Below, in pieces: positions 7,761-29,179 of a DNA stretch of 32,207 nt. The DNA is from an uncultured Bacilli bacterium (GTDB lineage Bacteria; Bacillota_I; Bacilli_A; RF39; UBA660), in contig CALVJP010000061.1 of assembly GCA_944332215.1 (NCBI GenBank), positions 1 to 32,207 of the forward strand, written 5' to 3'. A program made the translations under genes and the position numbers. How positions within the stretch are numbered: the first letter of the stretch is position 1; every line of letters starts with the position of its first letter. The notes under the pieces were generated by a model. It searched no databases, was not told where the DNA came from, and was given only the letters and a program-made list of their open reading frames with translations.

Positions 7761-7800
7761 AAAAGGCCTTTAAATATAAGAAATTAAAGGTCTTTTTAAT
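7761..7800 (-). terminator. Intrinsic terminator of the VirD4-like gene
   Basis: AAAGACCTTTAA and TTAAAGGCCTTTT form a stem immediately after the stop codon, with a short T-rich end on the minus strand. It is symmetrical enough to act in both directions. Confidence 0.75.
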
Positions 7801-10183
7801 AGTCGTCATCGTCATCTGCAAAGAAATCATCGAAAAATTGATCGTCAGATATATAGTCCTCTTTTGGAGGCGCCTTAGATATTTCTGGCTCAGTTTTAGG
7901 TGACTCAGCTTTCATCGTGGCATTGACTTTATTGGTAATTCGAGCCGCAAAATCGGCCTTATTGAAAGCTGGTTTAGTTGTTTTAGCTGAAGTTTCATTC
8001 TCTTCGTTAGTTGCTTGCTCTATAGCTGCTGGCTTTTTATTGTCTAAACTAACTGCTGGGCTAGTTTTAACAGCTTCGGTGGCCAAAACATTTTCTTGCT
8101 TGACGGTATCTTTTGGTTGCTCATGATCAGTTTGATCAATTGCAGGCATACCCGTTTTAGCTTGAATAAACTCTGAAAGTGGTCTTGGTTTAACTGGTTC
8201 ATGAGCTATTACTGAAGGCTCCACTGAAATTTTATTTGATTCCATTTTAGCACGCTCAGCTTGTTCTTCAGCTTCCAGTTCGGCTAATCTAGCATCAATA
8301 CGTTTAACTAAATCATCAATGTTTTTACTGGTTGGGACTTTATTCTCTTGCGGTCTCATAGCAGGCCTTGGCATTTGATTTCGGGCCATGGGATTTCTCC
8401 CCATATTATTATTGATAAATTTATTAAGTTCTTCGTCTTTTTTCTTATCAACATAACCTTTTAAATCAAAAACATGAACAACTTCTTTATTTCTGGTTGG
8501 ATAAACAGCATCAGAGGCCTCTTGGGAAACAAACAAAGGCCCCCATTTAATTTTCCAGTCATATTCAAGTTTGGTTTTGAATGGGTCTAAACGAGTTCTT
8601 AAGAGAATAACTTCGCCCTCTTTTAATTTTTGTAAATCACTGACCGTGGCAAGTGGCCTAGTTTCTTCTTTTTCTTTTTCTCCTTTGCCCGTTTTAACTT
8701 TAATTTCACCACACATTTTACTAATTTCTTCAAGGGCAGCCAGTTCGGTACTGATTAAATAAATGATATTAGTACAGTTGCCTTTAATAGTATCGCCTTT
8801 ATTTTTTCCATAAACTTCTGATAACTGAGCAAAGTTTTGAATAACGAAATAGAAACGCATTCGGCGGCTACGTGCAGCCGATACCATAGTCTCTACATCT
8901 TTTAATGGCGGCATATTAGCAAACTCATCAAGAATAAAATTAGTGCGGTATGGTAATTTTCCTCCACATTTTTGGGCATAGTCCACTAAAGTCTCGTAAC
9001 ATTGCTTAACGAAAATAGTAACTAATGGATGATAGGTCTTTTTTTCATCTTGAATAACAATAAAAACCGCGGTTTTTTTGCTACCAATATCTTCCATTTC
9101 AAAATCACTATGGGAAAGCATTTCCGAAATGTTTTCTCTTGAAGCAAATAATCTTAGTTTTTGCTTAAATACTGATAAAATGCTTCCTTTAGTCTCAGTT
9201 GGAGCAATTAAGGTTGATGAAGCACTGACATAAGCCGGTGAAGCGGGATCTTTATAACTAAAATATTTATTCACATAAGTAGCATTTGGTCCACATTTTT
9301 CTTCCCCCACCGTGGTAAATAAATTGACACTGTTGAGGTTAATTTCTTCTTCTTTGGCATCTTCAAATAAAGCTAAACAAAGGCCTGAGAAATAATCAGC
9401 TGAAGTTTTTTCCCAAAATGGATCTTGGTTTTGCGCGTTTGCATCATATAAGATATTAATTGCTAGGTCATCAATTAATTCGTTTGCTTTATCGCTGTTG
9501 CCATTTTTATAATATTGATACGGCAAATGTAAAGGATTCCAGCCACTACCGTTTTGAGGATTACGGAAATTAAGTAAAACAACATTGTAGCCTTTTTCTT
9601 TCAGCATTTTTGAAGTTTTTTCGTAAATTTCCCCTTTAGGGTCAGTAATAATCATAGATTCATCATGTTTAGCTAATGATTTGACTAATGGTAAAATGGC
9701 TATTTGAGTTTTACCAGACCCGGTGGATCCAATAATGAGATTATGCCCTTCACCATTATCCACCCACATTTTTTTCCCATTATTGATTAATGGCATCCCA
9801 CCAGCATTGGCATGTTCGGTTTGAATATCTACTTCTTCAATATCTTTTTGACGTTTAAGTTCACGTTCTTCTAGCCATTTAGAGTAACCTTTTTCTTTTT
9901 TACTGGCGGTTGAGAATCCAAGACCTTTTTCTAAGTCAAAGAAACGATCAGACACACTTAAAACACTGGCAACTAAGGCCACGATATATACGACAATTGT
10001 AATACCGATAAAATCTTTACCGAAAGCTGGGAACGGATTAAAACCATGAAATGGATGATCAATGTCACCAGCCGCAAATTGAGCTAGATTTAAAATGGCA
10101 ATGGCGACAAAATATAAAAGAATAACGGCATATATACCGAATAATAGCCAATCTTTAGGATCTGCTCTGAATTTTAGTTTCAT
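7796..10183 (-). CDS. virD4: VirD4/TraG-family type IV coupling ATPase
   Basis: A membrane-anchored hexameric ATPase family that delivers substrates to a type IV secretion channel. The 795-residue protein has two N-terminal membrane segments (about 12-35 and 57-77), Walker A GSTGSGKT (152-159), the VirD4 hallmark GWNPL (214-218) and Walker B NFILDEF (415-421). VIQNFAQLSEVYG follows. The last ~200 residues form a low-complexity Pro/Lys/Glu-rich cytosolic extension ending in a very acidic tail (DDDDDY). Such extensions often contact substrates; that role is inferred here. It has its own strong promoter and GAGGAGG RBS, so it is transcribed apart from the main T4SS operon upstream. No relaxase is nearby, so it may serve protein or unknown cargo. 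Confidence 0.93.
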   Translation of the reverse strand: MKLKFRADPKDWLLFGIYAVILLYFVAIAILNLAQFAAGDIDHPFHGFNPFPAFGKDFIGITIVVYIVALVASVLSVSDRFFDLEKGLGFSTASKKEKGYSKWLEERELKRQKDIEEVDIQTEHANAGGMPLINNGKKMWVDNGEGHNLIIGSTGSGKTQIAILPLVKSLAKHDESMIITDPKGEIYEKTSKMLKEKGYNVVLLNFRNPQNGSGWNPLHLPYQYYKNGNSDKANELIDDLAINILYDANAQNQDPFWEKTSADYFSGLCLALFEDAKEEEINLNSVNLFTTVGEEKCGPNATYVNKYFSYKDPASPAYVSASSTLIAPTETKGSILSVFKQKLRLFASRENISEMLSHSDFEMEDIGSKKTAVFIVIQDEKKTYHPLVTIFVKQCYETLVDYAQKCGGKLPYRTNFILDEFANMPPLKDVETMVSAARSRRMRFYFVIQNFAQLSEVYGKNKGDTIKGNCTNIIYLISTELAALEEISKMCGEIKVKTGKGEKEKEETRPLATVSDLQKLKEGEVILLRTRLDPFKTKLEYDWKIKWGPLFVSQEASDAVYPTRNKEVVHVFDLKGYVDKKKDEELNKFINNNMGRNPMARNQMPRPAMRPQENKVPTSKNIDDLVKRIDARLAELEAEEQAERAKMESNKISVEPSVIAHEPVKPRPLSEFIQAKTGMPAIDQTDHEQPKDTVKQENVLATEAVKTSPAVSLDNKKPAAIEQATNEENETSAKTTKPAFNKADFAARITNKVNATMKAESPKTEPEISKAPPKEDYISDDQFFDDFFADDDDDY

Positions 10184-11926: not shown

Positions 11927-14224
11927 TTATCTTGATGTCGGCCAATGACTTTTCATATATTCTTGCCATTTGCCGGTCGTATTTAGACTTAAAAAATAAC
12001 TATAAGTTTCTGTTGGTTTAGCTGCATTGAAGTTACCAGTTTTTAAAACTTCATATTCTGCCATTCTTCTTCTAACTAAACCGTCGTTATAGTTAGCTGT
12101 CCAGCCACACCCATTAGATTTCATACAATTAAATACTTCAAAACTGTCAACACCATATTGTCTGATTTTATCAGCAATATCGACATAACTTCCTGCTAAA
12201 CCAGTATTATAAGCCACACTAGCCAAAGTATATATTTGATATTCTTGTAAAGAGACATTGGTCATATCCGCTTTTACACCATCTAAAAATGCTTGCATAA
12301 CAATGGGGAACATCTGATCAATATATTTCTTATCGGTACACCCGTTTACAATGTCAGTCTTAAAACTACTATAACCAACTTGATCAGCATATTTAGCATC
12401 ATATCTTTCTGTAATTCCAAACGCCGTTGTCATACCGGCCCCATCGCCTTCATTGTTGGCAGCATAACCAGTATTATCGCCTTGGTTTTTATAATTACAA
12501 TGTGATACGCCTTCAACGTAGGCTACAAAATCCAGCAGATCTGATAAATTAGTAGAGCCTGCGCACTGGTCACCACTTATTGGGGCATTTGACGTAGTAC
12601 TGCCCACTTCAATATCCGTGGCATACATCACTTTATATGTTTCCACTACCCAGCCACTATAATTTTCATCTAAAGTAGTTCCACTTGGTGATCCAGGATC
12701 AAAAATAGTCACCTTGCCATCTTTAACCCCATTAACAGCTACCCAGTGTTGTGCACTTTTATTATGGTGTATTTGCAAAACAATAAATTTTTGATATTTT
12801 CCTTCCGCACCACTTGAAAGTTCATTGGTTATCATATCAGCTATTTTCGCATTATCAGAAGACCATACCGAATGAGATTCCCCGAAGCTCCAATTAGGAG
12901 CTATATTACTAGTTCCATTCCATGTAAAGGAGCCGCCACCTGTAAAACTTATTCCAGATTGATTTAAAGACGTTACAAAAGCCCCAGGATTAAAACTACT
13001 AAAGCCGCCAGGCAAATTGGTTATTTGGGTGCCTGAACGAGCGATTTGCATGCTTATGGAAGTAATAAGGCAACCAATACTAGCCATGCTTTTACCACCG
13101 CCAAGTCTAATACTTCCCCACTCTGGATCTGCTTGCTTCCAGGACGAAAAATCACCCGTGGCTTCGGCTACACATTGCGTATTATTTTTCTTACGATAAT
13201 ATTCAGCTAATTTAATTATTTCTTCAGCAATGATTTCTTTCTTTGTTTGATATTGCTCTTCATTTGACATATTTTGAACAGCTTGATAAGTCCCACCAAT
13301 GTATCCCGATTCACAAATTCTAGTCATGGTATAATACCGGCTTAATTTTTGAGCGGCATTAGAATCAGTTGTCGATAAACCAAATTCTTTCATTTCCCCG
13401 AAGTTGACACTTGGATTAAAACCGGAAGTGACACCATCTATAACGGCTCCATTGGTAGCCATATCAGCGACAGCTCCAAAAGTACAAAACATGCCATTCA
13501 GGGCAATAGCGGCAAATCCACCGATAGGATTACTATCATCAATAAAAGAGCCAACTAAACCATTTCCGGCTAAAGCCTTTTTATAATTTTCATCACTATA
13601 TGTTCCAATCCAGCCACTAGAATCAAGCATAACAATTGTAGCCGCGGTTAATAGATCAATAGAAGCTGGTTTTTTGATATTTTCGGCATCTTCATACGAC
13701 ATATGGCTAATATCTGTGGCATAATGGTTAATTAATTGATTAAGAACGCATCCAAAACTTAAAAGGTCCCCTTCGTACTCAAATTCATCGTCCCGAGTTA
13801 CGGCAGCCCCTATACATTCTCCGGTTGCAATACCTAAATTACCTATTATAGACATCATTTGCAAAATATCTATAAAACCATTGCTATCAAAGACTCCAGT
13901 AATATCGGATTTAAATGAGCCCCAAGTATCAGAATATGCATCTTCATCAAAGTTTGGATCATATGAGTCATTTATATAGTCAGATAAATATCCACGATGG
14001 GCCAAAGTAGCATAAAGAGCTATTTCATCTGTTTGCTGTGGATAAGCATTATGAATAATTTGTATCTTTTTTATTAATTGCTGTTCTTTTTTATTGCCCT
14101 CTGCCACGTCGTCCATATAAGCAGCACTTGATGATGATAAATTGACGAATACCACTAAAAAAGCAATTATTATTACTGAAAAACGTTTTAAGATTTTTAA
14201 ACCCTTAGCTTTTTGTTTTGTCAT
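11927..14224 (-). CDS. Exported bifunctional cell-wall enzyme: C39-like peptidase plus GH24-like lysozyme domain
   Basis: The 765-residue protein begins with a signal peptide or signal anchor (about 13-35) and a helical region of unknown role (about 40-345). A papain-like C39_2-type peptidase domain follows (about 355-535): Cys385 in GCLITS, His493 in QHWVAVNG, Asp509 in IFDPGS. The C-terminal domain (about 562-735) resembles phage-type GH24 lysozymes: Glu571 in YVEG, Thr599-600 in GMTTAFGIT, ASVAYNTG and GLVRRRMAEYEVL. T4SSs need a local hole in peptidoglycan, usually made by VirB1- or CwlT-like enzymes; this protein probably fills that role. It is the last gene of the T4SS operon, 20 nt after the previous gene. 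Catalytic activity is inferred. Confidence 0.85.
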   Translation of the reverse strand: MTKQKAKGLKILKRFSVIIIAFLVVFVNLSSSSAAYMDDVAEGNKKEQQLIKKIQIIHNAYPQQTDEIALYATLAHRGYLSDYINDSYDPNFDEDAYSDTWGSFKSDITGVFDSNGFIDILQMMSIIGNLGIATGECIGAAVTRDDEFEYEGDLLSFGCVLNQLINHYATDISHMSYEDAENIKKPASIDLLTAATIVMLDSSGWIGTYSDENYKKALAGNGLVGSFIDDSNPIGGFAAIALNGMFCTFGAVADMATNGAVIDGVTSGFNPSVNFGEMKEFGLSTTDSNAAQKLSRYYTMTRICESGYIGGTYQAVQNMSNEEQYQTKKEIIAEEIIKLAEYYRKKNNTQCVAEATGDFSSWKQADPEWGSIRLGGGKSMASIGCLITSISMQIARSGTQITNLPGGFSSFNPGAFVTSLNQSGISFTGGGSFTWNGTSNIAPNWSFGESHSVWSSDNAKIADMITNELSSGAEGKYQKFIVLQIHHNKSAQHWVAVNGVKDGKVTIFDPGSPSGTTLDENYSGWVVETYKVMYATDIEVGSTTSNAPISGDQCAGSTNLSDLLDFVAYVEGVSHCNYKNQGDNTGYAANNEGDGAGMTTAFGITERYDAKYADQVGYSSFKTDIVNGCTDKKYIDQMFPIVMQAFLDGVKADMTNVSLQEYQIYTLASVAYNTGLAGSYVDIADKIRQYGVDSFEVFNCMKSNGCGWTANYNDGLVRRRMAEYEVLKTGNFNAAKPTETYSYFLSLNTTGKWQEYMKSHWPTSR

Positions 14225-14931: not shown

Positions 14932-15591
14932 TTATCCTGTATAATGTCTAAAAACTACGTGCCCTTTACCCTTGATAAAATCATCTAATGTAGCCTCGGT
15001 TACTTGGTTAGCTGTTGATGAGGCGTGTGTTACAGTTAAATTTCCCGAATAAATGCCAACATGAGTGGCTGATGAAGCTCCGGTAAAAATGAGGTCTCCC
15101 GCGCTTAAATCAGTTGCCGAGGTCACAGTCTCAAAATGCGAATCACCTTCTTGACTATGAGTTACTCGAGGAAGATCAACGCCTAAAGCCTGGCTATAAC
15201 AATAAACAACTAATCCAGAGCAATCAAATGTATCTGGACCTTCTGCCCCATATACATATTCTTTACCAATTTGTTCTCTAGCGCATGATACAACTGAAGA
15301 AGTGGTGATAAGACTACTGCTACTGCTTGAACTATTGCCACCATTTAACAAACTATCAACAACAATCATCGGGTAAATCAAAAAAGACATAAGAGATATA
15401 AATAGAAAAAATGTTAAAGCTGCACCAATGATTAAGGCACCTTTCATTAATGGAGGAAGGCTAGTAAAACCCAGCCCTCCTAAACTTTCGGCTGTGCTAT
15501 TTGCATTTTTTAATTGTTTACTAGCTTGATTTACAGCCATACCTTTTTTTATGGCACTTTTAGCTTTGAGTACTATTGCCGGTAAGGCCAT
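14932..15591 (-). CDS. Membrane-anchored NlpC/P60 peptidoglycan peptidase
   Basis: The 219-residue protein has a cytosolic N-terminus, one membrane segment (about 52-78), a Ser-rich linker (about 86-100) and an NlpC/P60 domain. The catalytic Cys124 is in DCSGLV, His177 in HVGIYSG and a third residue His189 in VTHASS. The family cleaves peptide stems of peptidoglycan, usually at D-Glu bonds. The CwlT/Orf14-type proteins of Gram-positive conjugation systems combine such a domain with a lysozyme. Here the peptidase is a separate protein and the lysozyme-like domain sits two genes downstream. It follows virB4 by 15 nt. Confidence 0.92.
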   Translation of the reverse strand: MALPAIVLKAKSAIKKGMAVNQASKQLKNANSTAESLGGLGFTSLPPLMKGALIIGAALTFFLFISLMSFLIYPMIVVDSLLNGGNSSSSSSSLITTSSVVSCAREQIGKEYVYGAEGPDTFDCSGLVVYCYSQALGVDLPRVTHSQEGDSHFETVTSATDLSAGDLIFTGASSATHVGIYSGNLTVTHASSTANQVTEATLDDFIKGKGHVVFRHYTG

Positions 15592-15614: not shown

Positions 15615-17399
15615 TTAAAGTCCGCCACCACTACCAAACGAATCTAATTCTTGGTCAGTTACAACTATATTAATAGTCATACGTTTACTACCACAAACAA
15701 ATAGAGCTTCTCCTTGATTAAATCCTTTAATATTTTCTCTTTCATTATCATTTAAATCAATTAGTTTTGATAAATCTTCAACGGCTTGTTTTTTTAGGCC
15801 CATAACTAAGTAATATGAAGCATTATCGAAAATAGCTTTTCCTTGAGTAATGACACTTGGGTCACTAAAATCGGTTGGTTGCTGCGTTATTATAATGGTC
15901 CCTGTATTATATTTTCTAGCCCGTCTTTGCACTTGGGCCAAGAAATCAGCTCCAAGGGTATTATTTCCACTTAATAACACATGGGCTTCATCAACCATTA
16001 AAACCGTATTAACATCTGGATTTAGGGTTAAACTCCAAGAATATTTTAAAGTATTAAAGAATAAAGCATTTCTAATATTGGTATCAGCATTCATTAACTC
16101 TTTAATGTTGAAAACAATAAAATTACTTTTTGGAGAAATAGTAGTAGTACCGTCAAAATAATATTTTAACTCTTTAATTAAAGGTCTTAATTTTAATTCT
16201 AATTGTTCTAAAATATCTAATTCTTTATTATGTTCTGGCATGGCCGTTATTTTTCCTCTAACGGTTGCATAAACATCTTTAAATGTTGGATAATCAGCTG
16301 AAGTAAATTTAGTAAAATCGGTGTCAAAACTAATCCCAAAACGACGGTATGTTTCTTGGACCATCTCGCTGAAGATATTTAAAATATCTTCAGTAATTGA
16401 GGGATCATAGTATTTCATAAAAGCTTTCACGGTTTGTAAAGTCCTAGTTAAAACCGCATAGCCTAGGCCTTGCTTTAATTCATCCTCATCGGCATCGATT
16501 ATAACTTCTAAGGGATTGATCATTCCAAACTCGCCACCTTTACCAAGTTCGATATAATCACCACCATATAATCTTGCCATATCTTCTAATTCACCTTCCG
16601 GGTCGATGACAACAATTTGATTATCGTTTCTAATATGAGTTCTTAACATTACTTTAGCCGCTGTTGATTTACCACTACCTGAAGTACCTAAGATAATCAT
16701 GTTAGCATTATTACGATTGTGTTCTTTTTGAATTTGATATAAAAATTGATTGAATAGAACAACTCCACCAGAAAAATCGACTCCTAATAATGTTGATAAG
16801 CCAGGGTCTTTGATGCTATCAAAAATAAAGGGATACATCGCCGCGATGGTTGGCGAAGGAATAGGCGTACCAATCCTATCTTCAATCTCTTGTTTTGGAA
16901 AAATTGGGAGCATTGATTTTAGGGCTTTTTCTTGTTCAAATCTTAAAGGTATAGCACGCATATCCATGGCTTCTAAATAGCTTTTGACTTGCAATTTTTT
17001 AGAAGTTAAGTCATCTTCAGAATCAGCTGTAATCATAATATGCAATTGGAAATCATAAATTTTAGCTTGACTGGCTGCTAATTGTCTAATAAATTGTTCT
17101 AAAGTTTCATAATTTTGTCTGATTTTTTCCTGAATGGTAACATCGTTTTCTTCTTGATATCTAACTTTTAAATCAGCAATTTCCTTATTTATCATTTTAT
17201 TGATTACATCAAATTGCATAGGAATATGTTTAATTACCATTTTTATACCTGCCATACTAGTAAGGTGTGCTAAAAAACCTGGAGCAATATATCTAGGATA
17301 AGAAATGACCGTGAGAATAGTCGCATATTTATCAGAAACAACAAAACCACTTGGTTTAAATTCTAACCCTTTTGGGGCAATTTGACTTTTAATATCCAT
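15615..17399 (-). CDS. virB4: VirB4-family ATPase, C-terminal and central part
   Basis: The core energising ATPase of type IV secretion. The 594-residue protein holds part of the VirB4 N-terminal domain (about 1-200), Walker A GTSGSGKS (238-245), VVIDPEGE (263-270), the INPLEV block (294-299), Walker B VLMVDEAHVLL (466-476) and the TQQPTDFSDP motif (505-514). Usual VirB4 proteins are about 800 residues; the missing first part is on the preceding ORF, which ends TAATG so that its stop overlaps this ATG by one base. The split therefore looks like coupled translation of two polypeptides rather than decay, and both reading frames are clean. Confidence 0.93.
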   Translation of the reverse strand: MDIKSQIAPKGLEFKPSGFVVSDKYATILTVISYPRYIAPGFLAHLTSMAGIKMVIKHIPMQFDVINKMINKEIADLKVRYQEENDVTIQEKIRQNYETLEQFIRQLAASQAKIYDFQLHIMITADSEDDLTSKKLQVKSYLEAMDMRAIPLRFEQEKALKSMLPIFPKQEIEDRIGTPIPSPTIAAMYPFIFDSIKDPGLSTLLGVDFSGGVVLFNQFLYQIQKEHNRNNANMIILGTSGSGKSTAAKVMLRTHIRNDNQIVVIDPEGELEDMARLYGGDYIELGKGGEFGMINPLEVIIDADEDELKQGLGYAVLTRTLQTVKAFMKYYDPSITEDILNIFSEMVQETYRRFGISFDTDFTKFTSADYPTFKDVYATVRGKITAMPEHNKELDILEQLELKLRPLIKELKYYFDGTTTISPKSNFIVFNIKELMNADTNIRNALFFNTLKYSWSLTLNPDVNTVLMVDEAHVLLSGNNTLGADFLAQVQRRARKYNTGTIIITQQPTDFSDPSVITQGKAIFDNASYYLVMGLKKQAVEDLSKLIDLNDNERENIKGFNQGEALFVCGSKRMTINIVVTDQELDSFGSGGGL

Positions 17400-17950
17400 T
17401 ATCCAATCACCGTCCCAAACTTAGTGGTTTGTCCACCATTTAAGAAATTATCCAAAATGACTCTTAAATCGTCATTTGATGTTTGCTTTGATTGTAAGCC
17501 TGCACTAGCAAAGCTTTGAATTAATGTTCTGATTCGTTTTTGGATTTTTTCTAAATCGTTTTCTTTAAATAAAAGGTAAAATTCTGTATCAACCACATTA
17601 TTATTTGTAAACATATTAGCTTTGTTTATATCATCAATTATTAGTTTTCTTTTTACTGGATTTTGCTGCGAATTATACAATAGTTGTAATTGGGAAAGAT
17701 AGGCATTGATATCTACTGGCCTATCAGCCGCTATAATCCAAAACTCATAATCTATAATGTTATAAACGTTTCTTAAATTATTAATAATACCATATATAGC
17801 TTCCTCTTCTAAAATGAAAATATTTCTTGGGAATATTTTAACACCGGTTACTTTTTCCCCATTATCTAAAAGAATCATTCCATTAGTTATTGATTTAACG
17901 GGTACAAAATCATTGGTGTATTTACTTCTTGTTTGTTTCTTTGAACTCAT
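17399..17950 (-). CDS. VirB4 N-terminal domain on a separate ORF
   Basis: The 183-residue protein starts with a basic stretch, then VPVKSITNGMILLDNGEKVTG and IFPRNIFILEEEAIYGIINNLRNVY. This is the pattern seen at the start of full-length VirB4 homologues of Gram-positive conjugation systems. It lacks a P-loop; the ATPase part follows on the next ORF, coupled through TAATG. It overlaps the preceding PrgI/VirB3-like gene by 29 nt. Together the two VirB4 ORFs reach 777 residues, the normal family size. Assignment rests on motif resemblance and position. Confidence 0.75.
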   Translation of the reverse strand: MSSKKQTRSKYTNDFVPVKSITNGMILLDNGEKVTGVKIFPRNIFILEEEAIYGIINNLRNVYNIIDYEFWIIAADRPVDINAYLSQLQLLYNSQQNPVKRKLIIDDINKANMFTNNNVVDTEFYLLFKENDLEKIQKRIRTLIQSFASAGLQSKQTSNDDLRVILDNFLNGGQTTKFGTVIG

Positions 17951-18248
17951 CTTTTACGCACCAACCTTTCCAAATATATTTTTGCCCATGTATGTCTGTG
18001 TAAAAATTATAGACATTTTTTATTACAGTAAGGGTATTATGATAATTAGGTATTGGTAAGACTAGAAACCCCGTTATTAAGGCAGGAAGTAAATCTATTA
18101 TGGCCCCCCAAAATGTTGATGGGCTTATAAACAATAATAGAATTATTGTTGTAACGATGCCACTTCCAAATAATATCAAATCAAATTTTGTAAACATGCC
18201 AAATATTAATAAAGATTTTTTGGCATTTGAAGGTATTAAGTAATCCAT
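17922..18248 (-). CDS. PrgI/VirB3-like membrane protein
   Basis: The 108-residue protein begins YLIPSNAKKSLLIFGMFTKFDLILFG, has two close membrane segments (about 23-45 and 47-68) and a short cytosolic tail. This matches the PrgI family, the VirB3-equivalent inner-membrane component that nearly always precedes VirB4 in Gram-positive T4SSs. It overlaps the following VirB4 N-terminal gene by 29 nt, so expression is coupled. RBS AAGGGG precedes the ATG. Confidence 0.85.
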   Translation of the reverse strand: MDYLIPSNAKKSLLIFGMFTKFDLILFGSGIVTTIILLLFISPSTFWGAIIDLLPALITGFLVLPIPNYHNTLTVIKNVYNFYTDIHGQKYIWKGWCVKDEFKETNKK

Positions 18249-18829: not shown

Positions 18830-20881
18830 TTAATGGCTACCGCCACCACCAATATGTTTTTGCATAAGTCCTGACTGTTGAGCTTCATGAACCGCTTTAG
18901 CATTCTCATATTCGTCGCTATCTCTAATGCCTCTAGCTGCGGCCTTAGCTTGATCTTTAGCTGTGGTGATACCATTGCCACCACCAGAAATATGAGCCCA
19001 ATCGCTAACGTCATAACCCAATTTTCCGTCTTTATTAATTCTCTCTAACGCAATTCTCATACTTGCAAGTTCTGCATCAGAGCCAGCAGTTATTCCACCT
19101 CGATCAATATATTCTTGAACCATTTTGTCTTCCTTAGTTTTTAGTTGGTTCATCATATTAGAAAATGCATTATCAGTCATACGTCCTTCCCTATATTCTT
19201 TTCTGAAATATTCACGTTTTTCTTCAAGCAATTTAAAATCATCGCTTTTCTTCTTAAGTTGATCTTTTGCACGCTCCTCCATTTGATCAGCATAACTGGC
19301 GAAACTGTCATGCAATTTCGCTCTTTGTTCTAATACTTCATATTTCGATTGAGCTCCTACGGCATTTCGCATTCTAGCGCCTATTCTATCTTTCAAATGA
19401 GTGCCATCTCTTAAGGCCATTGATCTAGTTAAATCACCCACGGTTCCCGCTGCTTTAGAAACCACATTCTTTCCTTTAGCGCGAGCTCCAACGAAACCAC
19501 CTCTAGCAAAACCACTACCAGCTCCACCTAAAGCACTAAGTGCACTTCGGCCTAATGATCTACCCATATTTCTCGAAGTAGCAAAGGCACCTAAAGCATT
19601 GGCCCCAGCACCAACCACGCCTCCTGCTACTCCGCCTATAATACCCGTTGCTAAAGCATTATTACCTATTGTTTTTAAATGATTAAGACCGAGTTCTCCT
19701 GAAAATTTAATTCCAAATATATTCTCGATCATTTCTGGAACTTTTTTGGCAAAGACAAAAGCTCCAAGAATTAAGAATAAGTATATCCAGAAACTCATTT
19801 CATTGTCATTAATACCACTAGCTAATTCACTATTATTCGCTAAAACTTTACTAGAAATGATAGAAATTAATAACATTACAAGGAAAATAGTCGCCAGTCT
19901 TAAGAATAACGAGAAATAAGTTTTGGCACATTCATTAATCCATTTTCTTAATTTACTGTCGCTTATACTTTCTTTAGGGTCTATATAAGAGACAATAGCT
20001 ATCGGGGCAATCATTTGTAAAAATGCCAGCTTAATTGCCCTGAGTGCTACATCAATACAAAAACTAATTAATAAGAAAACTAAATATATACCAGCAGCAG
20101 TAGAAATAAAAGGAAGATAGTTTACAGCATATTCATTATCAACTTTCCACCATAATAATTTATCAAAGTGGGAAAAATTTCGATCATCAATTACACTATT
20201 TCCATCATACTTGAGGAAAAAGCTATCTAAAGTAACTCCATTACCACTAATATCCGGGGTGCTGGCAAAATACCCATCTAACGCTTCCAAACAATCCTTC
20301 GATTTGGCCATTTGGGCACTACCAAAAATTGGTCCATCTGCGCATTCTGTTATTTTATCGGTGTTAACCGAGAAAAAAGTCCCAAAGACCATAAATTGAA
20401 CATCTTTAGCCATCATTTCCGCTTGCGTGCTATCTATTTTTTGAACATTACCCTCAGCATCTGTAGTACTGTAATTGGTACTACCTCCAGTGCCTAAAAC
20501 AAGCTGACCTATTAAATTGTTTTGGACAATAATTCTTTGCAAATTCATTGCATAACTAAAGATACTTGGTACACTTACTAATAACACAATAACCACTAAA
20601 GTGTTAGTTACTAGCTTGCCAAACCCTTTTGAGCTATCAGAAAAAGCATTCGGATCCACAAGATATTGTAAAAGCGAAAAACTAACTTTAAACAACATAA
20701 ATATACCTAGTAAAACATATACCCTGCTAATTAAAGCAGTTAAAGGATCATCCGGATCGCCACTGTACAAATTGACTTCTGACAAATATACCAGGAGTTT
20801 ATATAGAACAGGGATTATCGAATAGACGATATTATCAATGAAGAACATCAAAGTTCTAAAACCGTTTACAAATATATCCAT
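18830..20881 (-). CDS. VirB6/TrbL-like polytopic channel protein
   Basis: The 683-residue protein has about six or seven membrane segments. Three lie near the N-terminus (about 12-38, 47-71, 88-110), a loop exposed outside the membrane follows (about 115-255), and further segments lie at about 255-300, 320-345 and 360-380. Then comes a Gly/Ala-rich stretch (about 405-475: GIIGGVAGGVVGAGANALGA) and a long charged coiled-coil tail (about 510-605). Multi-span VirB6-type proteins with large soluble tails form part of the T4SS inner-membrane channel. It follows the VirB2-like genes, as expected. Direct sequence identity to a named VirB6 subfamily could not be judged by eye. Confidence 0.8.
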   Translation of the reverse strand: MDIFVNGFRTLMFFIDNIVYSIIPVLYKLLVYLSEVNLYSGDPDDPLTALISRVYVLLGIFMLFKVSFSLLQYLVDPNAFSDSSKGFGKLVTNTLVVIVLLVSVPSIFSYAMNLQRIIVQNNLIGQLVLGTGGSTNYSTTDAEGNVQKIDSTQAEMMAKDVQFMVFGTFFSVNTDKITECADGPIFGSAQMAKSKDCLEALDGYFASTPDISGNGVTLDSFFLKYDGNSVIDDRNFSHFDKLLWWKVDNEYAVNYLPFISTAAGIYLVFLLISFCIDVALRAIKLAFLQMIAPIAIVSYIDPKESISDSKLRKWINECAKTYFSLFLRLATIFLVMLLISIISSKVLANNSELASGINDNEMSFWIYLFLILGAFVFAKKVPEMIENIFGIKFSGELGLNHLKTIGNNALATGIIGGVAGGVVGAGANALGAFATSRNMGRSLGRSALSALGGAGSGFARGGFVGARAKGKNVVSKAAGTVGDLTRSMALRDGTHLKDRIGARMRNAVGAQSKYEVLEQRAKLHDSFASYADQMEERAKDQLKKKSDDFKLLEEKREYFRKEYREGRMTDNAFSNMMNQLKTKEDKMVQEYIDRGGITAGSDAELASMRIALERINKDGKLGYDVSDWAHISGGGNGITTAKDQAKAAARGIRDSDEYENAKAVHEAQQSGLMQKHIGGGGSH

Positions 20882-20901: not shown

Positions 20902-22026
20902 TTATTTATCTACATCACAGAAAACATTACCGTCTTCACCAATTTGTACTTCCCCAGCAGTATAGTTATTGATGATTGAAATAACAAATCCTAACAGCAT
21001 TGGAAGTAGTAGCAATATAATTACTACTATAATTCTAATCCATAAATGTTTTAATACATCACGTAATTTTTCATCATCTGAGCCAGTAATGGCTTTGATA
21101 AAACTAATCATTGTCATCACGATCAGTAATATAATACCGGCGATACTAATTACCCAAAATATTGTATTTAGCATATCACTTAATTCACCACTAATTAAAG
21201 CACCGCATGCACTACCAACATCACTAAATGTATAGTAATTGCCACCACTGGCATAATTGCCCCAGTTTTCAATCAATTCTCTACTAGATGCATTAAATGA
21301 AGTACCCGCATTAACATTGTCCCCTGTATCAAAATTTGTCTGAGAATTTGCTTCCCCTGCCTGTTTACTATTATCTTTCCAAAGATAAGCTGTGGCTATG
21401 GCATCACCTGCTGGAGGAAACTTAATTGTTTCTGTTAATCCATGCCACTCTGGGTTTGCTTTGCTATGGTCATAGTCATATGAAACAACTATACTAGAAG
21501 GACATTCCCATTTTTCCTTGCCACTCTTATAAAAATTTGCTAATAGTGCATCTAATTGTCGGGTCTCGCGAACACCAACTTGGCACTGTTTAGAAGGATT
21601 AGTTTCCCCTTGTTCTTCCCCTTCTATATACTCTTTTGAGCATTTTGTACTTATTACGGCAGAATAATATTGATTACCAGAGCTATCAGTCCCGGCAGAT
21701 TTTGCTACTTGTATAGAGAAATCAATATGCCGTTTTATAGGTTTTTTATATTGAGCAGGGTCACCTACTTGTGGGCCTGTCCAAGCCACATTATGCATCC
21801 CAACTTGGACATCCAAATAATAATAGCACATCGCAAAACCAGGCTCCATAACAGAGGCAGCATTATAGCAAATATCTCCATCGATATATACTAAATTCCC
21901 CTCAGAATCTGTCATACTATCAGGGCAATCCAGTGCAACTGCCCTAACACCATCTATATTAACAAAAAATATATTCAAACATAATATTGTAAATAAACTA
22001 ATTAATTTGATTTTGCTATTTTTCAT
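20902..22026 (-). CDS. Secreted-domain protein with C-terminal VirB2-like two-helix hairpin
   Basis: The 374-residue protein has a cleavable-type signal peptide (about 1-29, ending GVRA), a Cys-containing extracellular domain (about 30-270) and two C-terminal membrane helices (about 289-313 and 332-352). These are joined by a charged loop GSDDEKLRD. The helical end mimics the small VirB2-like proteins upstream in spacing, loop charge and one Cys before (Cys274) and one after (Cys370) the hairpin. It may be a pilus-tip or anchor version of the pilin; this is inference. A TATAAT box lies 37-42 nt upstream of the start, but no good -35 is visible. Confidence 0.7.
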   Translation of the reverse strand: MKNSKIKLISLFTILCLNIFFVNIDGVRAVALDCPDSMTDSEGNLVYIDGDICYNAASVMEPGFAMCYYYLDVQVGMHNVAWTGPQVGDPAQYKKPIKRHIDFSIQVAKSAGTDSSGNQYYSAVISTKCSKEYIEGEEQGETNPSKQCQVGVRETRQLDALLANFYKSGKEKWECPSSIVVSYDYDHSKANPEWHGLTETIKFPPAGDAIATAYLWKDNSKQAGEANSQTNFDTGDNVNAGTSFNASSRELIENWGNYASGGNYYTFSDVGSACGALISGELSDMLNTIFWVISIAGIILLIVMTMISFIKAITGSDDEKLRDVLKHLWIRIIVVIILLLLPMLLGFVISIINNYTAGEVQIGEDGNVFCDVDK

Positions 22027-22071
22027 AATAAATTCCCCATTTTCTTATTTTTTCACAAATATATTATAACA

Positions 22072-22101
22072 TAAAAAAAAACAACAATAAACTATTATTG
22101 T
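22072..22101 (-). terminator. Weak intrinsic terminator after the VirB2-like pair
   Basis: A 7-bp AT-rich stem ACAATAA/TTATTGT is followed on the minus strand by nine T. Because the stem is weak, read-through into the downstream T4SS genes is likely, giving more transcript for the two small proteins than for the rest. Confidence 0.65.
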
Positions 22102-22115
22102 GTTTTTTATCGAAT

Positions 22116-22535
22116 TTATTCTTCATTATCATTTTCAGTATCTGTATTATCATCATTAGAAACACCATTAATAAACTTTTTACTACATGACCAAATATCA
22201 TCTGACGTTTGTCCTTCGACATTGGATTTTTCTTCAACGCCTGATAATAAATTAACAGCTAACTGAACAATTGTGATAACTAAGAAAACTAAAACAGCAG
22301 AGATAAGCCTAGAAATAAAAGATTTTTGATATTTTTTAATATCCTCTTCTTTTTTAGCCACAACTGACTTAGCAAAGTCCAACATACCCCATATAATTAA
22401 TAAAATAGGAACAACTATTTTAATACCTTTAATAATTGTCGCCACCACATTAAAAAGGGTGTTGGGCACTTCAATACCACCACAAAGGGTTGTATTACTA
22501 ACTTCAGTTTCTAAAATATTCAGCAATTCCAACAT
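22116..22535 (-). CDS. VirB2/TrbC-like small membrane protein (pilin candidate), second copy
   Basis: The 139-residue protein has two membrane helices (about 35-57 and 76-97) flanking a Lys/Glu-rich loop, and a polar tail ending in an acidic stretch. It is a clear paralogue of the next upstream gene: VVPILLIIWGM-DFAKSVV, VFLVITIVQLAV and IWSC--KFING are shared. One Cys lies before the hairpin (Cys18) and one after (Cys117). Small two-helix proteins at this position are the VirB2 pilin class of T4SSs. RBS GTGGGGA lies before the ATG. Confidence 0.72.
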   Translation of the reverse strand: MLELLNILETEVSNTTLCGGIEVPNTLFNVVATIIKGIKIVVPILLIIWGMLDFAKSVVAKKEEDIKKYQKSFISRLISAVLVFLVITIVQLAVNLLSGVEEKSNVEGQTSDDIWSCSKKFINGVSNDDNTDTENDNEE

Positions 22536-22572
22536 TATATCCCCACTTTCTATTAGTTAATTTAACTTATAT

Positions 22573-22929
22573 TTATGAGCGGCCATTGATAAATTCTTCA
22601 ATACAAGACCAAATACTATTCGAATCATCAGTACCAGAAGCTCCAACTTGACCAACTAATCTTACAGCTAATTGAACCACAGTTATCACTAAGAATACAA
22701 CAATAGCAGCAATAAGTCTTCTCATAAAGGTTTTTTGGCCAGCTTTGATTTTATCTTCGTCACCACCAACTACTGATTTAGCAAAATCAATCATACCCCA
22801 TATGATTAATAAAATTGGCACAACAATTTGAATACTTTTGATAATCAAACTAACAATATTTACTACACCATCTGGAATAGCTGCGCAAGCATCACCAACA
22901 CTTGATAAAATAGCTATATTATCTAACAT
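22573..22929 (-). CDS. VirB2/TrbC-like small membrane protein (pilin candidate), first copy
   Basis: The 118-residue protein has two membrane helices (about 24-46 and 70-92) with a charged loop GGDEDKIKAGQK. Its tail is IWSCIEEFINGRS. Cys15 and Cys109 bracket the hairpin. It is the first gene of the T4SS unit, with a strong TTGACA-17-TATTAT promoter and an AGAGGAGG RBS, both suited to high expression as needed for a pilin. No N-terminal signal peptide beyond the first helix is apparent. The VirB2 assignment comes from topology and gene order, not from strong sequence identity. Confidence 0.72.
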   Translation of the reverse strand: MLDNIAILSSVGDACAAIPDGVVNIVSLIIKSIQIVVPILLIIWGMIDFAKSVVGGDEDKIKAGQKTFMRRLIAAIVVFLVITVVQLAVRLVGQVGASGTDDSNSIWSCIEEFINGRS

Positions 22930-23018: not shown

Positions 23019-24026
23019 TTAATGAAATAAACCGAATAACCCTTTCTTTTTATCTTCCGTCTCCGTAGATTGTCTAACAAAACCAAGCTTCACTAAAAAA
23101 GCATCCAAAGCACTGTTATTGTTTTCTTGATCATATAAAGGCGGCAGACTATAAAAAACCTTAGTATGAGTTTCATATTCAAAATCTAAAACATCATGAC
23201 TACTTAATAAACTTTTATTAAGCACAATTCTTTTATTTTTATAACGTTCAAAAACCCTCGGATTTTGAGCTAAAAGCTTGTTTAACTTTAACTTTGACGG
23301 CTCAACTAGATAGATAGTATCATTAACAATAGACTCCGCCGCAGGATTATTGTTAAGATCAACTAAAATAACATCAACTTTAGTACTATATTTACCAATA
23401 TTATTACCAAGCTCATTGCTACTGATACTATACATATCTTTATCATCAAAATACATAAAATCACGTTTATCAAGTTCTAAAGCCACAACCTTGTAATTGC
23501 GCTCAAGCTGTTTTTTCATAATATAAATTAAACTCGTCGCGCCAGCTCCATCAGTCACATTTTTAAAACCAATTACCTGAGCCACCGAAGACTCACGGTA
23601 AACCTCAACTACCTCTCTAGTTGGGGCATTCATCTCATGATAAGTGTCTAATTGGTGATACTGCGCCACATCACGATAACTATTAGGGTTATTATATAAA
23701 TAATTAACTCCCTCAATATTCATTGTAAAATTATAAATGCGCATCGAAATTAAATCCGATAAATATTCTGGATTAGTTACTTCAGGAGAGCCATCTAAAA
23801 GTAAAATTAAACGATCCATATCTAAAGATAAAGATAACTTTTGTAAAGTTTTGATGTCTTTATAATCTTTAAGGGCAGTAATATCGAGAATCATGCGCTG
23901 GAAGAAAAAGTTTTTAAACGTTTCGACAATTTCATCAACCGTAAACTCACCTTCCAGTTTTTTAATGACATCAATATCTAACGATGCTAAAGCATCACGA
24001 TATTTATTAGCAATTATGACGTTCAT
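23019..24026 (-). CDS. tadZ: TadZ/CpaE-like protein with degenerate P-loop
   Basis: TadZ/CpaE proteins are MinD/ParA-type factors that place the Tad machine in the cell. The 335-residue protein has an N-terminal receiver-like or divergent region (about 1-110) and a ParA-like fold (about 148-320). At the P-loop position it reads KNVTDGAGATS (155-165), so both key lysines of KGGxGKT are absent. VDVILVDLNN (about 218-227) follows, like the Walker B strand, then ERYKNKRIVLNKS. The missing lysines agree with the known atypical ATPase motifs of some TadZ proteins. It is the last gene of the Tad operon, 10 nt after a pseudopilin gene. The assignment combines fold pattern and context. Confidence 0.72.
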   Translation of the reverse strand: MNVIIANKYRDALASLDIDVIKKLEGEFTVDEIVETFKNFFFQRMILDITALKDYKDIKTLQKLSLSLDMDRLILLLDGSPEVTNPEYLSDLISMRIYNFTMNIEGVNYLYNNPNSYRDVAQYHQLDTYHEMNAPTREVVEVYRESSVAQVIGFKNVTDGAGATSLIYIMKKQLERNYKVVALELDKRDFMYFDDKDMYSISSNELGNNIGKYSTKVDVILVDLNNNPAAESIVNDTIYLVEPSKLKLNKLLAQNPRVFERYKNKRIVLNKSLLSSHDVLDFEYETHTKVFYSLPPLYDQENNNSALDAFLVKLGFVRQSTETEDKKKGLFGLFH

Positions 24027-24539: not shown

Positions 24540-25009
24540 GCAGCATTCCCTCCTCTATCTGAAAAGTTATAAGTCCTTTCACCTTTAGTATGAACGGGAA
24601 TTTTGAAAGCACCGACAATTGGTAATTCAACATAAATATAGCTAACAACACTATAATTGTAATACAAAAATTCGCCATCTTTATTCTTTTCATCATTAGG
24701 AGTATCGTTATTAAAATAATAAACACAGTAGAAGAAATTAGAATCTTGAGGCTCTAATTTCCCTTTACCGCGGCTTGCAGCACATACACTGCCATCACTT
24801 GGCGTATAACCAATAGTCTTTAACGTATTATCAATTTCCGTGCGTGCCAATTCATTATAGCCCTCAAACTTTTCAATGGATGCTAATATGCGGGCATTAA
24901 CCTTATAAGCTTTATAATAACTGATGGTAGCCGATAAAATGCCAAAGACAATGATAATGAAGATAATTATCATATTATATGTAAATGTTTCCCCAATACC
25001 TTGACGCAT
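24536..25009 (-). CDS. TadE-like pseudopilin, first of a paralogous pair
   Basis: The 157-residue protein begins MRQGIGETFTYN, with one membrane helix (about 10-32) and an outer domain carrying two Cys (SVCAAS and FFYCVY). The ending is VELPIVGAFKIPV. The N-terminal pattern, a short basic-polar stretch, a Gly, then a hydrophobic helix, resembles a prepilin. GGAGGTAG precedes the ATG. It is coupled to the following paralogue by a GTGA overlap. Confidence 0.68.
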   Translation of the reverse strand: MRQGIGETFTYNMIIIFIIIVFGILSATISYYKAYKVNARILASIEKFEGYNELARTEIDNTLKTIGYTPSDGSVCAASRGKGKLEPQDSNFFYCVYYFNNDTPNDEKNKDGEFLYYNYSVVSYIYVELPIVGAFKIPVHTKGERTYNFSDRGGNAA

Positions 25010-25031: not shown

Positions 25032-25214
25032 TTAACTATTACATGGCTGACAACCAGCTTTATCATCCCAGCATTGCCCGTTATTCAAACATTCAGTTCT
25101 CTCTTTAGTATTGTTCATTAAACTAGTAATTAATGGTGTTACTACGGCAACAATAACTCCAATAAGGATAATCGTAACAACCGTTAAGTTTGCTTCTCCT
25201 GATGCCTCTTTCAT
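25032..25214 (-). CDS. Flp-like small pilin candidate
   Basis: The 60-residue protein has a short leader KEASGEA, a hydrophobic helix (about 10-32) and a Cys-rich polar tail with four Cys (CLNNGQCWDDKAGCQPC). Size, leader and position after tadC fit the Flp major pilin of Tad systems. However, the classical G/xxxxEY cleavage site is not present, and the Cys-rich tail is unusual. RBS AGGTGG lies 9 nt before the ATG, and a TATAAT box lies upstream in the 58-nt gap, so extra transcription from here is possible. Confidence 0.65.
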   Translation of the reverse strand: MKEASGEANLTVVTIILIGVIVAVVTPLITSLMNNTKERTECLNNGQCWDDKAGCQPCNS

Positions 25215-26980: not shown

Positions 26981-28093
26981 TTATTCAAATAATTTTTCAC
27001 TAGTATCAGACGTGATTAAACTTTTAGTGGGCTTACCACCGAGAAAACGCATTTCTTCTGGTAAAAATACGCCTTGAATTTCCAAATAATCGATAAGATA
27101 TGGACTTGGGTTATTGCGAATAACTCTTCCATCAGCTGATTTACGATAAATAACGTTGGTTTTAGCTTCATTATTTTCATTAACATAAAATTCCGTAACC
27201 TCGGCAATTTCACGATTAAACTTATGGGTTGTCTTGTCAGTATAACCGCGAACATATACGCCCAATTGAATGTACCTGTGAATGGTTTTGACAAATTGAT
27301 CAATTTCTTGATTAGTTTCCAATAAACTATACATACGCTGAGGAATCGAAGCAGCCTTATCAGCATGGATTGTTGATAAAATATAATGGCCTGAAGAAAT
27401 TGAGTTACGAACAGCTAAGACGGCCTCAGCACTACGCACTTCTGAAAGTAAAATCCATTTTGGGTTTTGACGCATACAAGTGACTAAAACGTCCGTATAT
27501 GAAGCAATATTATTGGTTTTCATTGCCACTATATCACGGTGAGGGAAAATTTTATCTAAATGTAATTCAAGGGTATCCTCGATGGTAATTATTTTCTCAT
27601 CACCAGCGATTTTAGAAGCTAAATACTTAACTAATTCTGTTTTTCCTGAGCCGGTTTCACCACAAACCATAATGTTACAATGTCCTTTGACACAGTATTC
27701 CAAAAAGTCGTGAATATCGGCTTCAATATATTTTTGAGCGATGATTTTTTCTTTTTCTAGTCTAATTTTTGCCGGAGTTTTACGAACTACACAAGCAATG
27801 CCGTTAGAGGCAATAGAATCGTGGACAAAATTCATACGTAACTCAGCGCTTTCCGCATCGAGGAATGGATGAGCCATATTAAAGGTTTTACCCATAACAT
27901 TCGAGCACTGAAAGGCTAATTTTTCTATGAAAGCATTGTTAATTTCAGGTTTTTCGACACGAAATATACCTTGAGATAAAGTCTTTAACCATATTTGTCC
28001 ATTATTACTATAAGAAATGTCTGTAATATCATCGTTTTCTAAAAATTCTTTTAAGGGGCCAAAATCTATTTGGTCAAACATATTTTCATGCAT
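26981..28093 (-). CDS. tadA: TadA/CpaF secretion ATPase
   Basis: A GspE/VirB11-superfamily hexameric ATPase that powers pilus assembly. The 370-residue protein has an N-terminal domain (about 1-110), Walker A GETGSGKT (145-152), an acidic box IITIEDTLELHL (168-179), Walker B ILLSEVR (214-220) and a His box GHYILSTIHADKA (235-247). CpaF-type proteins are often longer at the N-terminus; this one is compact. Neighbouring TadB and TadC identify it as TadA rather than VirB11, although a role in the adjacent T4SS cannot be excluded. Confidence 0.92.
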   Translation of the reverse strand: MHENMFDQIDFGPLKEFLENDDITDISYSNNGQIWLKTLSQGIFRVEKPEINNAFIEKLAFQCSNVMGKTFNMAHPFLDAESAELRMNFVHDSIASNGIACVVRKTPAKIRLEKEKIIAQKYIEADIHDFLEYCVKGHCNIMVCGETGSGKTELVKYLASKIAGDEKIITIEDTLELHLDKIFPHRDIVAMKTNNIASYTDVLVTCMRQNPKWILLSEVRSAEAVLAVRNSISSGHYILSTIHADKAASIPQRMYSLLETNQEIDQFVKTIHRYIQLGVYVRGYTDKTTHKFNREIAEVTEFYVNENNEAKTNVIYRKSADGRVIRNNPSPYLIDYLEIQGVFLPEEMRFLGGKPTKSLITSDTSEKLFE

Positions 28094-28096: not shown

Positions 28097-29179
28097 TTAT
28101 TGCCCCGTTGTTGTATTTGTTGAATTAGTTTGGGTATTTGTCTCACCAACATTAATCGTAAACGTAGCTGTATGAACTGTGCCATCTTTTTCAGTTAACG
28201 TAGCAATTAGAGTACCAGCGGCATTGAAAGAAACATTTTGTTTAGTTTTGGTAACTTTTTTATCAGCACCACCATTGATGCTATAAGCACAAGTATAAGT
28301 ACTACCACAGCCTTTTGGATAAGTAAGAGTTACTTTATTTGGCGTACCGCCAGTTTCTGTCATGGTTGGTAATAATTCATCGGTCGTCGTTGTATCTTGC
28401 ACTGGTAACGGAATATTAACAGCATGTGCTTCAATATAATCAGCTAATTGTTGGGTTGAAACCTCAGTAGCTCCCGTAGCATCGACACTACCACCATGTG
28501 GAACGGGGAATAATTCAACCCCTAAAGAACTCATGTAAGAAGCTTTTCTTAACAAGATGTTGATCTCTTCAGGAACTCCGAATATCATCATAGCTGGAGT
28601 CCTATTTTCGTCAGTGTTTTCAAAAACGTTTTTACCAGATGAATCTTTAACAGCTAAAACTTCAACGTTTTCAACTAATTTACCTAACATTACTTTTTCA
28701 TCAGTACCATTCCCAGTTTTCATATAAATATCAATGGTATTACCTGGGTAAATTGAGTTACCGTAGGTACTTTCCATATTTACTGGGAAATTGTAAACAA
28801 TCTCACCTTTTTTAACTTTTACAAAAACTGAGTCTGGTAATTTACTTTTATCAACAACGGTATCGGTGTAGAACATACTACCTTTAGGAATGACTGAGTT
28901 AACGTTTGAGTATTTACCAACAACGTTGGCTTTTGTTCTAATGACGTTGTCGCCAATAGAAATATTTGGCATATCAACTAATTCAACCATGTCATCAGTA
29001 ATTTCTGTACGTGGTTGAATGGTTTCTACAGCCACGGGAACTTTAATTGGCTCCACGGCTTGATTAATTTGGCTACTATAACCGATATATAGAAGTACTA
29101 AAATAATGATTACTCCTATAATCGTAATAGTGTTTTTGTTTTTCAAAAACCTTTGTGCCGAAGCTAAAAATTGATTCAT
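28097..29179 (-). CDS. cpaB: CpaB/RcpC-like SAF-domain protein with C-terminal Ig-like domain
   Basis: The 360-residue protein has one membrane helix (about 19-36), an SAF domain (VPVAVETIQPRTEITDDMVE, about 47-66) and a RcpC/CpaB core (KVKKGEIVYNFPVN, IYPGNTIDIYMKTG, GKLVENVEVLAV). After a linker, residues about 285-345 form a small beta-rich domain with two Cys (KGCGSTYTCAYSINGG, TLIATLTEKDGTVHTATFTINV), like a PKD/Ig-type module. Its tail is Thr/Asn-rich. In Gram-negative cells CpaB works at the periplasmic outer-membrane pore. Here, with no outer membrane expected, the extra domain may suit a wall-exposed role. It is tightly linked to tadA by a 3-nt gap. Confidence 0.85.
   Translation of the reverse strand: MNQFLASAQRFLKNKNTITIIGVIIILVLLYIGYSSQINQAVEPIKVPVAVETIQPRTEITDDMVELVDMPNISIGDNVIRTKANVVGKYSNVNSVIPKGSMFYTDTVVDKSKLPDSVFVKVKKGEIVYNFPVNMESTYGNSIYPGNTIDIYMKTGNGTDEKVMLGKLVENVEVLAVKDSSGKNVFENTDENRTPAMMIFGVPEEINILLRKASYMSSLGVELFPVPHGGSVDATGATEVSTQQLADYIEAHAVNIPLPVQDTTTTDELLPTMTETGGTPNKVTLTYPKGCGSTYTCAYSINGGADKKVTKTKQNVSFNAAGTLIATLTEKDGTVHTATFTINVGETNTQTNSTNTTTGQ

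Follow-up and report, generated by a model that had tools for sequence, protein, structure and literature searches.

A cysteine-bracketed VirB2-like hairpin, free and fused to secreted domains, beside chromosomal type IV secretion genes in an uncultured Bacilli bacterium

Three adjacent genes in a 32,207-nucleotide stretch of DNA from an uncultured Bacilli bacterium of the GTDB family UBA660 (contig CALVJP010000061.1, assembly GCA_944332215.1; the whole stretch is referred to here as the window) encode helical hairpins bracketed by two cysteines, in two cases as small free proteins and in the third as the C-terminal part of a larger, secreted-looking protein. On balance, we lean towards the interpretation that these hairpins are a VirB2-type pilin module, braced by a disulfide, for the display of exchangeable domains by means of a chromosomal type IV secretion system (T4SS). 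The contig belongs to a 1.08 Mb genome in 74 contigs that is 86% complete. The three genes are:

22573..22929 (-): protein A, a small bracketed hairpin protein of 118 amino acids (aa), VirB2/T4SS_pilin-like by a PF18895 match below cut-off and by predicted structure; codons of Cys15 at 22885-22887 and Cys109 at 22603-22605 (-)
22116..22535 (-): protein B, a small bracketed hairpin protein of 139 aa, PF18895 above cut-off; codons of Cys18 at 22482-22484 and Cys117 at 22185-22187 (-)
20902..22026 (-): fused protein of 374 aa, with a signal-peptide-like N-terminus, a Cys-rich secreted domain at about 30-250 and a C-terminal bracketed hairpin; codons of the hairpin Cys274 at 21205-21207 and Cys370 at 20917-20919 (-)

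A preliminary description of this DNA had singled out these three open reading frames (ORFs) and the Cys pairs 15/109, 18/117 and 274/370, and the positions were exact on re-reading. Proteins A and B contain no cysteines beyond the bracket, and the fused protein has seven more. The T4SS_pilin family (PF18895) matched protein B with an expect value (E) of 4.6e-6 (27.0 bits, with a cut-off of 26.6), and matched the fused protein (E 5.8e-4) and protein A (E 0.0044) below the cut-off. PF04956 was not among the family matches of the window hairpins. Related genomes hold further PF18895 members above the cut-off. The predicted structure of protein A has helices at 20-54 and 58-98 (predicted local distance difference test score, pLDDT, 77), and the hairpin of the fused protein, whose model consists of the helix pair plus a three-strand region, has predicted helices at 280-314 and 319-355. 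This shared, predicted helix-loop-helix agrees with the earlier proposal that the hairpins fold alike. The N-side cysteine, said there to lie 10-20 residues ahead of the first helix, is about 5 residues before it in the models. With modest confidence, we consider the three window hairpins to be one family, a VirB2-type T4SS pilin module with disulfide-clamped extracellular ends.

The cysteine bracket is strongly conserved. In 96 small homologues, with a median pairwise identity of 41%, the N-side Cys was present in 96/96 and the C-side Cys column was occupied in 94, the remaining two having a Cys close by. The two columns, with conservation of 1.00 and 0.98, ranked within the top seven positions and had variable neighbors, and just 4 Cys were found in the 9,027 residues between the bracket cysteines. 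Cys counts were even in 88 of the 96 proteins (two in 46, four in 35, six in 5 and eight in 2). A second pair, made up of a CxxC motif and a tail Cys, occurred together in 46 proteins, each part alone in 2 and 1, and neither in 47. Fused homologues of this first set, encoded in the same loci as the small ones, had the bracket in 56 of 57 cases. A second set, comprising 64 stretches of sampled genomes plus one locus (L005) from the window's own genome, had it in 97/102 (small proteins, 28/28; C-terminal hairpins, 40/45; N-terminal hairpins, 24/24; hairpins in the middle, 5/5). Pooling the two sets, which overlap slightly and whose rows are related rather than independent, gave both Cys within 4 residues of the columns in 251/257 hairpins, the exceptions having the N side only (3), the C side only (1) or neither (2). 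(One of the rows with neither, L072, ends at a contig end.) By the strict column, both Cys were present in 230/238 rows after thinning at 90% identity and in 197/204 after thinning at 70%. The cysteines were lost jointly more often than expected (Fisher p 6e-4 for the 238 rows, which are not independent, and with one of the two “neither” rows being the truncated L072). For comparison, PF18895 hairpins were taken from a sample of other families of the phylum; our own hairpin hidden Markov model (HMM) missed nearly all of these outside loci, and the frames were read directly instead, with TGA as Trp. None of the 28 hairpins had the bracket. Since the related hairpins keep both cysteines almost without exception, whereas none of the 28 T4SS_pilin hairpins from outside the family does, the bracket is no accident, and the co-conservation of the Cys pairs, proposed as a check in the preliminary description, amounts to near-invariant pairing.

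The fused proteins indicate on which side of the membrane the cysteines lie. A hydrophobic, signal-like N-terminus was present on 57/57 fused proteins of the first set, which places the N-side of the hairpin outside in those that have an N-terminal secreted domain. In 24 proteins, a soluble domain follows the hairpin, and it is often a wall enzyme, which places the C-side outside too. Both bracket cysteines should thus be extracellular, and the bracket would correspond to an intramolecular disulfide. The earlier suggestion of a common fold with a disulfide brace outside the membrane has good support from the 251/257 pairing, the mostly even Cys counts (88/96) and these two independent arguments for the location of the ends. 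The genome itself encodes one cytoplasmic-looking thioredoxin, as well as an exported-looking thioredoxin-like pair about 3 kb apart on contig C67 (L213, CSAC and lipoprotein-like, and L214, CPWC and membrane-anchored), which are only candidates for disulfide catalysts.

A search profile built from 45 small hairpins detected the hairpin in 50/54 genomes sampled from the window's GTDB family and in 0/341 others of the class. The hairpin occurs free, C-terminal to fast-evolving, Cys-rich secreted domains, or N-terminal to secreted domains. At least 74 fused proteins were found among the matches listed (hairpin C-terminal in 45, N-terminal in 24 and central in 5), the fused set being defined as the listed hits with an open frame >180 aa plus L005; further matches exist beyond those listed. 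The L005 protein (1420-2439 (-), contig C63) is a fourth bracketed hairpin of the window's own genome, located C-terminally in a 340-aa protein with 15 Cys, next to a gene that is presumably NifU/SufU-like. Pfam searches of the fused proteins at an E threshold of 0.001, which admits some matches below curated cut-offs, yielded C39_2 in 4, GDSL_2 in 3, Big_2 in 3 and M23 in 2 of the 24 N-terminal-hairpin proteins, and one each of ELLD, NlpC/P60, CHAP, VanY, YkuD, two amidase models and a weak GH99; PF18895 itself was matched in 5/24, and three further single matches looked like chance. In the other 50 fused proteins, PF18895 was found in 13, C39_2 in 2 and a VgrG3-like C-terminal domain in 1; one additional match was probably chance.

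The two parts of the fused proteins evolve at very different rates. Among 24 fused relatives, the median identity was 14% for the N-domain and 48% for the hairpin, with the hairpin higher in 275/276 pairs, as would fit a docking module that is conserved while the domain it displays diversifies. The Cys content of the N-domain was 3.2%, compared to 0.8% in other long ORFs. The N-domain of the window protein initially appeared to be an orphan, as a single-sequence phmmer search found no relative, but a profile of 24 others matched it with E 4e-17, and this notion was dropped. Across a tree of 238 hairpin rows, 27 changes were required among the labels small, C-terminal and N-terminal, the alignment being short and many forks open, and at least 11 changes between free (small) and fused were forced by starred branches. 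The hairpin of the window's fused protein grouped with other fused hairpins and not with its neighbors A and B. At L148 (1258-6936 (-)), four adjacent N-terminal-hairpin genes have similar hairpins and differing C-terminal domains (one C39, two unassigned and one that we take to be SGNH-like), an array that looks like cassette shuffling. Pilin fusions may also occur beyond the window's GTDB family, judging from L235, in a genome of another family, which encodes a protein of 512 aa that looks secreted, matches PF18895 (apparently in a hairpin at its C-terminus) and lacks the Cys bracket. Two PF18895 matches in the window's own genome (L003 and L006, presumably RodA/FtsW-type and CAAX-protease-type membrane proteins) lacked the bracket and were dropped, as were weak hairpin-HMM matches inside VirB6 proteins (E 0.02 and 0.05).

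The distribution of the hairpins follows that of the secretion system. A close virB4 homologue (E below 1e-278) was found in 46/54 family genomes, and all 46 have hairpins; of the eight family genomes without a close virB4, four also lack hairpins (Fisher p 2e-4). Genomes outside the family with a more distant VirB4 yielded no hairpin by profile. C-terminal-hairpin fusions were located within 12 kb of virB4 in 27/44 cases, compared to 1/21 for N-terminal ones (p 9e-6, within the limits of draft contigs and omitting the five central fusions and those in genomes without a located virB4, one C-terminal and three N-terminal). The locus-linked fused form is often present once or twice per locus, just upstream of virB6.

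In the window, the hairpin trio is part of a chromosomal operon with CpaB- and CpaF-like pilus genes and with VirB3, VirB4, VirB6 and VirD4 genes. In transcript order, the Tad-like genes and a 335-aa protein are upstream of the hairpins, and VirB6, VirB3, VirB4, NlpC/P60, VirB1-like and VirD4 are downstream. The VirB6-like gene adjoins the hairpins, and VirB4 is about 3.5-5 kb off. In this order, the features are:

28097..29179 (-): CpaB/RcpC-like Flp pilus protein; RcpC 2.4e-7, above cut-off; CpaB 6.8e-9, below cut-off
26981..28093 (-): CpaF/TadA- or VirB11-like secretion ATPase; T2SSE 1.2e-28; VirB11 1.3e-33 and TadA 2.4e-30, both below cut-off
25273-26064 and 26064-26966 (-): two TadC/TadB-position membrane proteins, named by position
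25032..25214 (-): Flp-pilin-like ORF of 60 aa with a Cys-rich tail, by sequence; no NCBIfam match
24036-24539 and 24536-25009 (-): two minor-pilin-like proteins with one N-terminal helix each; no significant family match
23019..24026 (-): TadZ-position protein of 335 aa, adjoining the pilins, named by position only; no family match
18830..20881 (-): VirB6/TrbL-like membrane protein; TrbL_4 8.5e-4, MMCAP2_0566 6.7e-9 and pLS20_p028 7.5e-8, all below cut-off
17922..18248 (-): PrgI/VirB3-like small membrane protein, by PrgI at E 0.08 only and position
17399..17950 (-): N-terminal part of VirB4, a separate gene; VirB4_plasma positions 95-276, E 5.6e-16, below cut-off
15615..17399 (-): main part of the VirB4 ATPase; TraG P-loop 8.5e-15; VirB4_plasma 295-891, E 3.8e-105, below equivalog cut-off
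14932..15591 (-): NlpC/P60 peptidoglycan hydrolase, E 2e-21
11927..14224 (-): VirB1-like secreted protein; weak phage lysozyme (E 0.0036) and C39 (E 0.018), both below cut-off
7796..10183 (-): VirD4 coupling ATPase (T4CP); T4SS-DNA_transf 1.4e-56; CD1115 family above cut-off

The T2SSE ATPase scored about equally as TadA and as VirB11. For the TadC/TadB-position proteins, T2SSF was matched in 2/20 with a best E of 0.37, which is not significant, and profiles of the TadZ-position and TadB-position proteins gave nothing significant. Among 50 loci whose flank upstream of virB4 spans at least 9.5 kb, VirB3-like and VirB6-like genes were present in 50/50, the hairpin in 48, the 335-aa TadZ-position protein in 46 and minor-pilin-like proteins in 45. 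VirB4 is split into two genes that overlap by one base (183 aa and 594 aa; 15615-17950 (-)), and the main part is 594 aa in 69/81 ORFs, showing that the split is conserved. The Flp-like ORF (25032-25214 (-)) has four Cys in its tail, so that the Cys enrichment reaches the Tad-like pilin. At the head of the operon (29635-32196 (-)) is a Cys-rich, secreted-looking protein of 853 aa with no NCBIfam match, possibly a large surface adhesin.

Several observations weigh against the pilin module interpretation. Two of the three window hairpins score under the PF18895 cut-off, and the fused-protein model is weak (whole-model pLDDT 64, predicted template modeling score, pTM, 0.38). A sequence search of solved structures gave no pilin, with profile A2 matching only a designed protein (E 1.1). 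No Foldseek match had an E better than 2.5, and Foldseek with VIA-align gave generic helical hairpins and no pilin, such hairpins being too simple to discriminate; the solved-structure search with the fused model had no match at E ≤0.001. (Known VirB2/TraA entries were not among the solved-structure matches listed, an absence that does not weigh against the fold.) Four family genomes have hairpins and no detected close virB4, where the assemblies may be incomplete, and four or five untruncated rows are without one or both Cys. Finally, VKOR and DsbB were found in 0/39 genomes searched (24 of the window's own genus, including its own genome), and Thioredoxin_4 in one of the 39, outside the genus.

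It is possible, though in our view doubtful, that the hairpin is merely a disulfide-braced membrane anchor tethering secreted adhesins or wall enzymes, with the small proteins as channel subunits and the filament built from the Tad-like genes rather than from hairpins. The occurrence of fusions on both sides of the hairpin fits such an anchor, as do the lack of a pilin match in solved structures and the fact that the N-terminal-hairpin proteins are mostly unlinked to virB4, and wall enzymes tethered to the cell's own surface would be useful. However, an anchor leaves the free small forms beside virB6 unexplained, and the hairpins are limited to the genomes of one family, where they track virB4. 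Furthermore, the charged residues D48, K51 and R71 of protein A, which are kept in 120, 119 and 122 of 126 small hairpins, are also kept in 80, 82 and 105 of 106 C-terminal-hairpin rows (including the middle ones) and in 19, 24 and 18 (with Lys in 7 more) of 25 N-terminal hairpins. This retention in the fused forms is more than a mere anchor would need.

We regard it as unlikely that the two cysteines bond neighboring subunits in a covalent filament, or bind a ligand, instead of closing one hairpin. Odd Cys counts in 8/96 small proteins would be consistent with intersubunit bonds, but nearly every protein has one Cys per side, the extra cysteines are also paired, and the N-terminal-hairpin fusions keep exactly the same two positions (25/25), as expected of a bond within the module. 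Slightly less probable still is an ordinary integrated conjugative element with its pilin, rather than a domesticated system. The nearest VirB4 and VirD4 models are indeed conjugative (Mbov_0397 and CD1115 families), but no relaxase was found among the 20 window proteins scanned with Pfam (the rest of the genome was not searched for relaxases), and virD4 is followed by genes of ordinary chromosomal appearance, presumably smpB, rnr and rmuC. The presence of a closely related virB4 in most of the family genomes likewise speaks against such an element, as does the lack of matches to protein B in 72,556 plasmids and to the hairpin profile in viral contigs.

If the hairpins are indeed a pilin module, proteins A and B would be free pilins of a chromosomal T4SS that shares its operon with a Tad-like pilus apparatus, and the fused protein would be a display form, whose signal peptide exports the fast-evolving Cys-rich domain. 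Its hairpin would then dock the exported domain in the membrane pilin pool, from which it could enter the machine or pilus, most probably as a minor subunit or a tip component. Small and fused pilins would share this pool, with their N and C ends outside, the loop inside and the disulfide as a clamp; VirB6 and VirB4 would draw on it, and the fused form would sit on the assembly as a cap or decoration, with the domain exposed at its outward end. We infer that the hairpins are incorporated into a pilus and that the wall or other cells are the targets of the fused domains. The preliminary description plausibly suggested that the fused form may be a pilin variant for the tip or an adaptor: the few copies per locus upstream of virB6 and the fast-evolving secreted domain fit display. 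Across the family, the module is reused in C-terminal hairpins with mostly unknown Cys-rich domains, usually encoded beside virB4, and in N-terminal hairpins, usually encoded elsewhere in the genome and often carrying peptidoglycan or ester hydrolases, which might make an opening for the machine in the wall of the producing cell or act upon another cell in contact with it.

The window hairpins resemble the VirB2, TraA and T4SS_pilin conjugative pilins (PF18895, PF04956) in having two hydrophobic helices and a charged loop, and in being located beside virB3, virB4 and virB6. They differ in having the bracket, which is missing from 28/28 PF18895 hairpins outside the family, and in being fused to secreted domains. 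Conjugative pili are described as two- or three-helix pilin subunits packed with lipids (PMC9905601). Patescibacteria have chromosomal monoderm T4SSs with tandem arrays of 2-11 divergent VirB2-like pilin genes, most clusters being without a relaxase (PMC12102498); these resemble the window system in their tandem pilins, but belong to another phylum, and the accessible description mentions no Cys bracket or enzyme fusions. According to the accessible text of a 2025 review, Gram-positive T4SSs have no VirB2 subunits, Patescibacteria being the exception (PMC12857230). Another resemblance is to the archaeal Ced/Ted DNA import systems, with CedA1/TedC pilins, which are domesticated chromosomal VirB2-VirB4-VirB6 sets and the only conjugation apparatus known to their authors to have been domesticated for DNA transfer (PMC9905601); Ced works beside separate Ups pili (PMC11868833). 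The window system, unlike Ced/Ted, has VirD4, wall hydrolases and fused pilins, and the terms “cystein” and “disulf” are absent from the accessible main text on Ced/Ted (PMC9905601).

Similarity to the integrative and conjugative elements of Mollicutes (Mbov_0395, 0396 and 0397 families) extends to the main part of VirB4 (E 3.8e-105) and to pilin- and VirB6-like matches, all below curated cut-offs, but the window VirB4 is split in two genes, and the PF18895 hairpins in sampled genomes with in-frame TGA are without the bracket. The CpaB/RcpC protein, the CpaF/TadA-type ATPase and the Flp-like ORF recall the Tad/Flp apparatus, from which the window differs in that TadB, TadC, TadZ and the minor pilins are named by position only and in that these genes form one operon with the T4SS genes. 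The VgrG/PAAR “evolved” tips of the type VI secretion system also consist of a structural subunit with swappable effector domains; the machine and fold are unrelated, and the likeness is one of working only. A search of titles and the starts of abstracts, in a literature sample from which most subscription papers and preprints were missing, yielded no paper describing VirB2-like pilins with the bracket or with enzyme fusions.

The hairpins represent a VirB2-like family that is near-universal in one family of Bacilli, has a diagnostic Cys clamp and is fused at either end to varied secreted domains. The presence of free and fused forms with many secreted domains suggests a surface machine with interchangeable attachments. 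More speculatively, a VirB2-type pilin may have been turned into a general display chassis, onto which these small-genome gut Bacilli repeatedly graft adhesin-like and wall-degrading domains. A domesticated T4SS-plus-Tad machine would bring these domains to neighboring cells, at their surface or envelope, and the arrangement would parallel, independently, both the Patescibacteria epibiont machinery and the “evolved” type VI tips. The conserved clamp also raises the question of how bacteria with no detected DsbB or VKOR oxidize so many conserved extracellular cysteines. If the fused forms do join the machine, pilins in this family would be carriers of enzymes and adhesins, beyond their role as subunits of a fiber.

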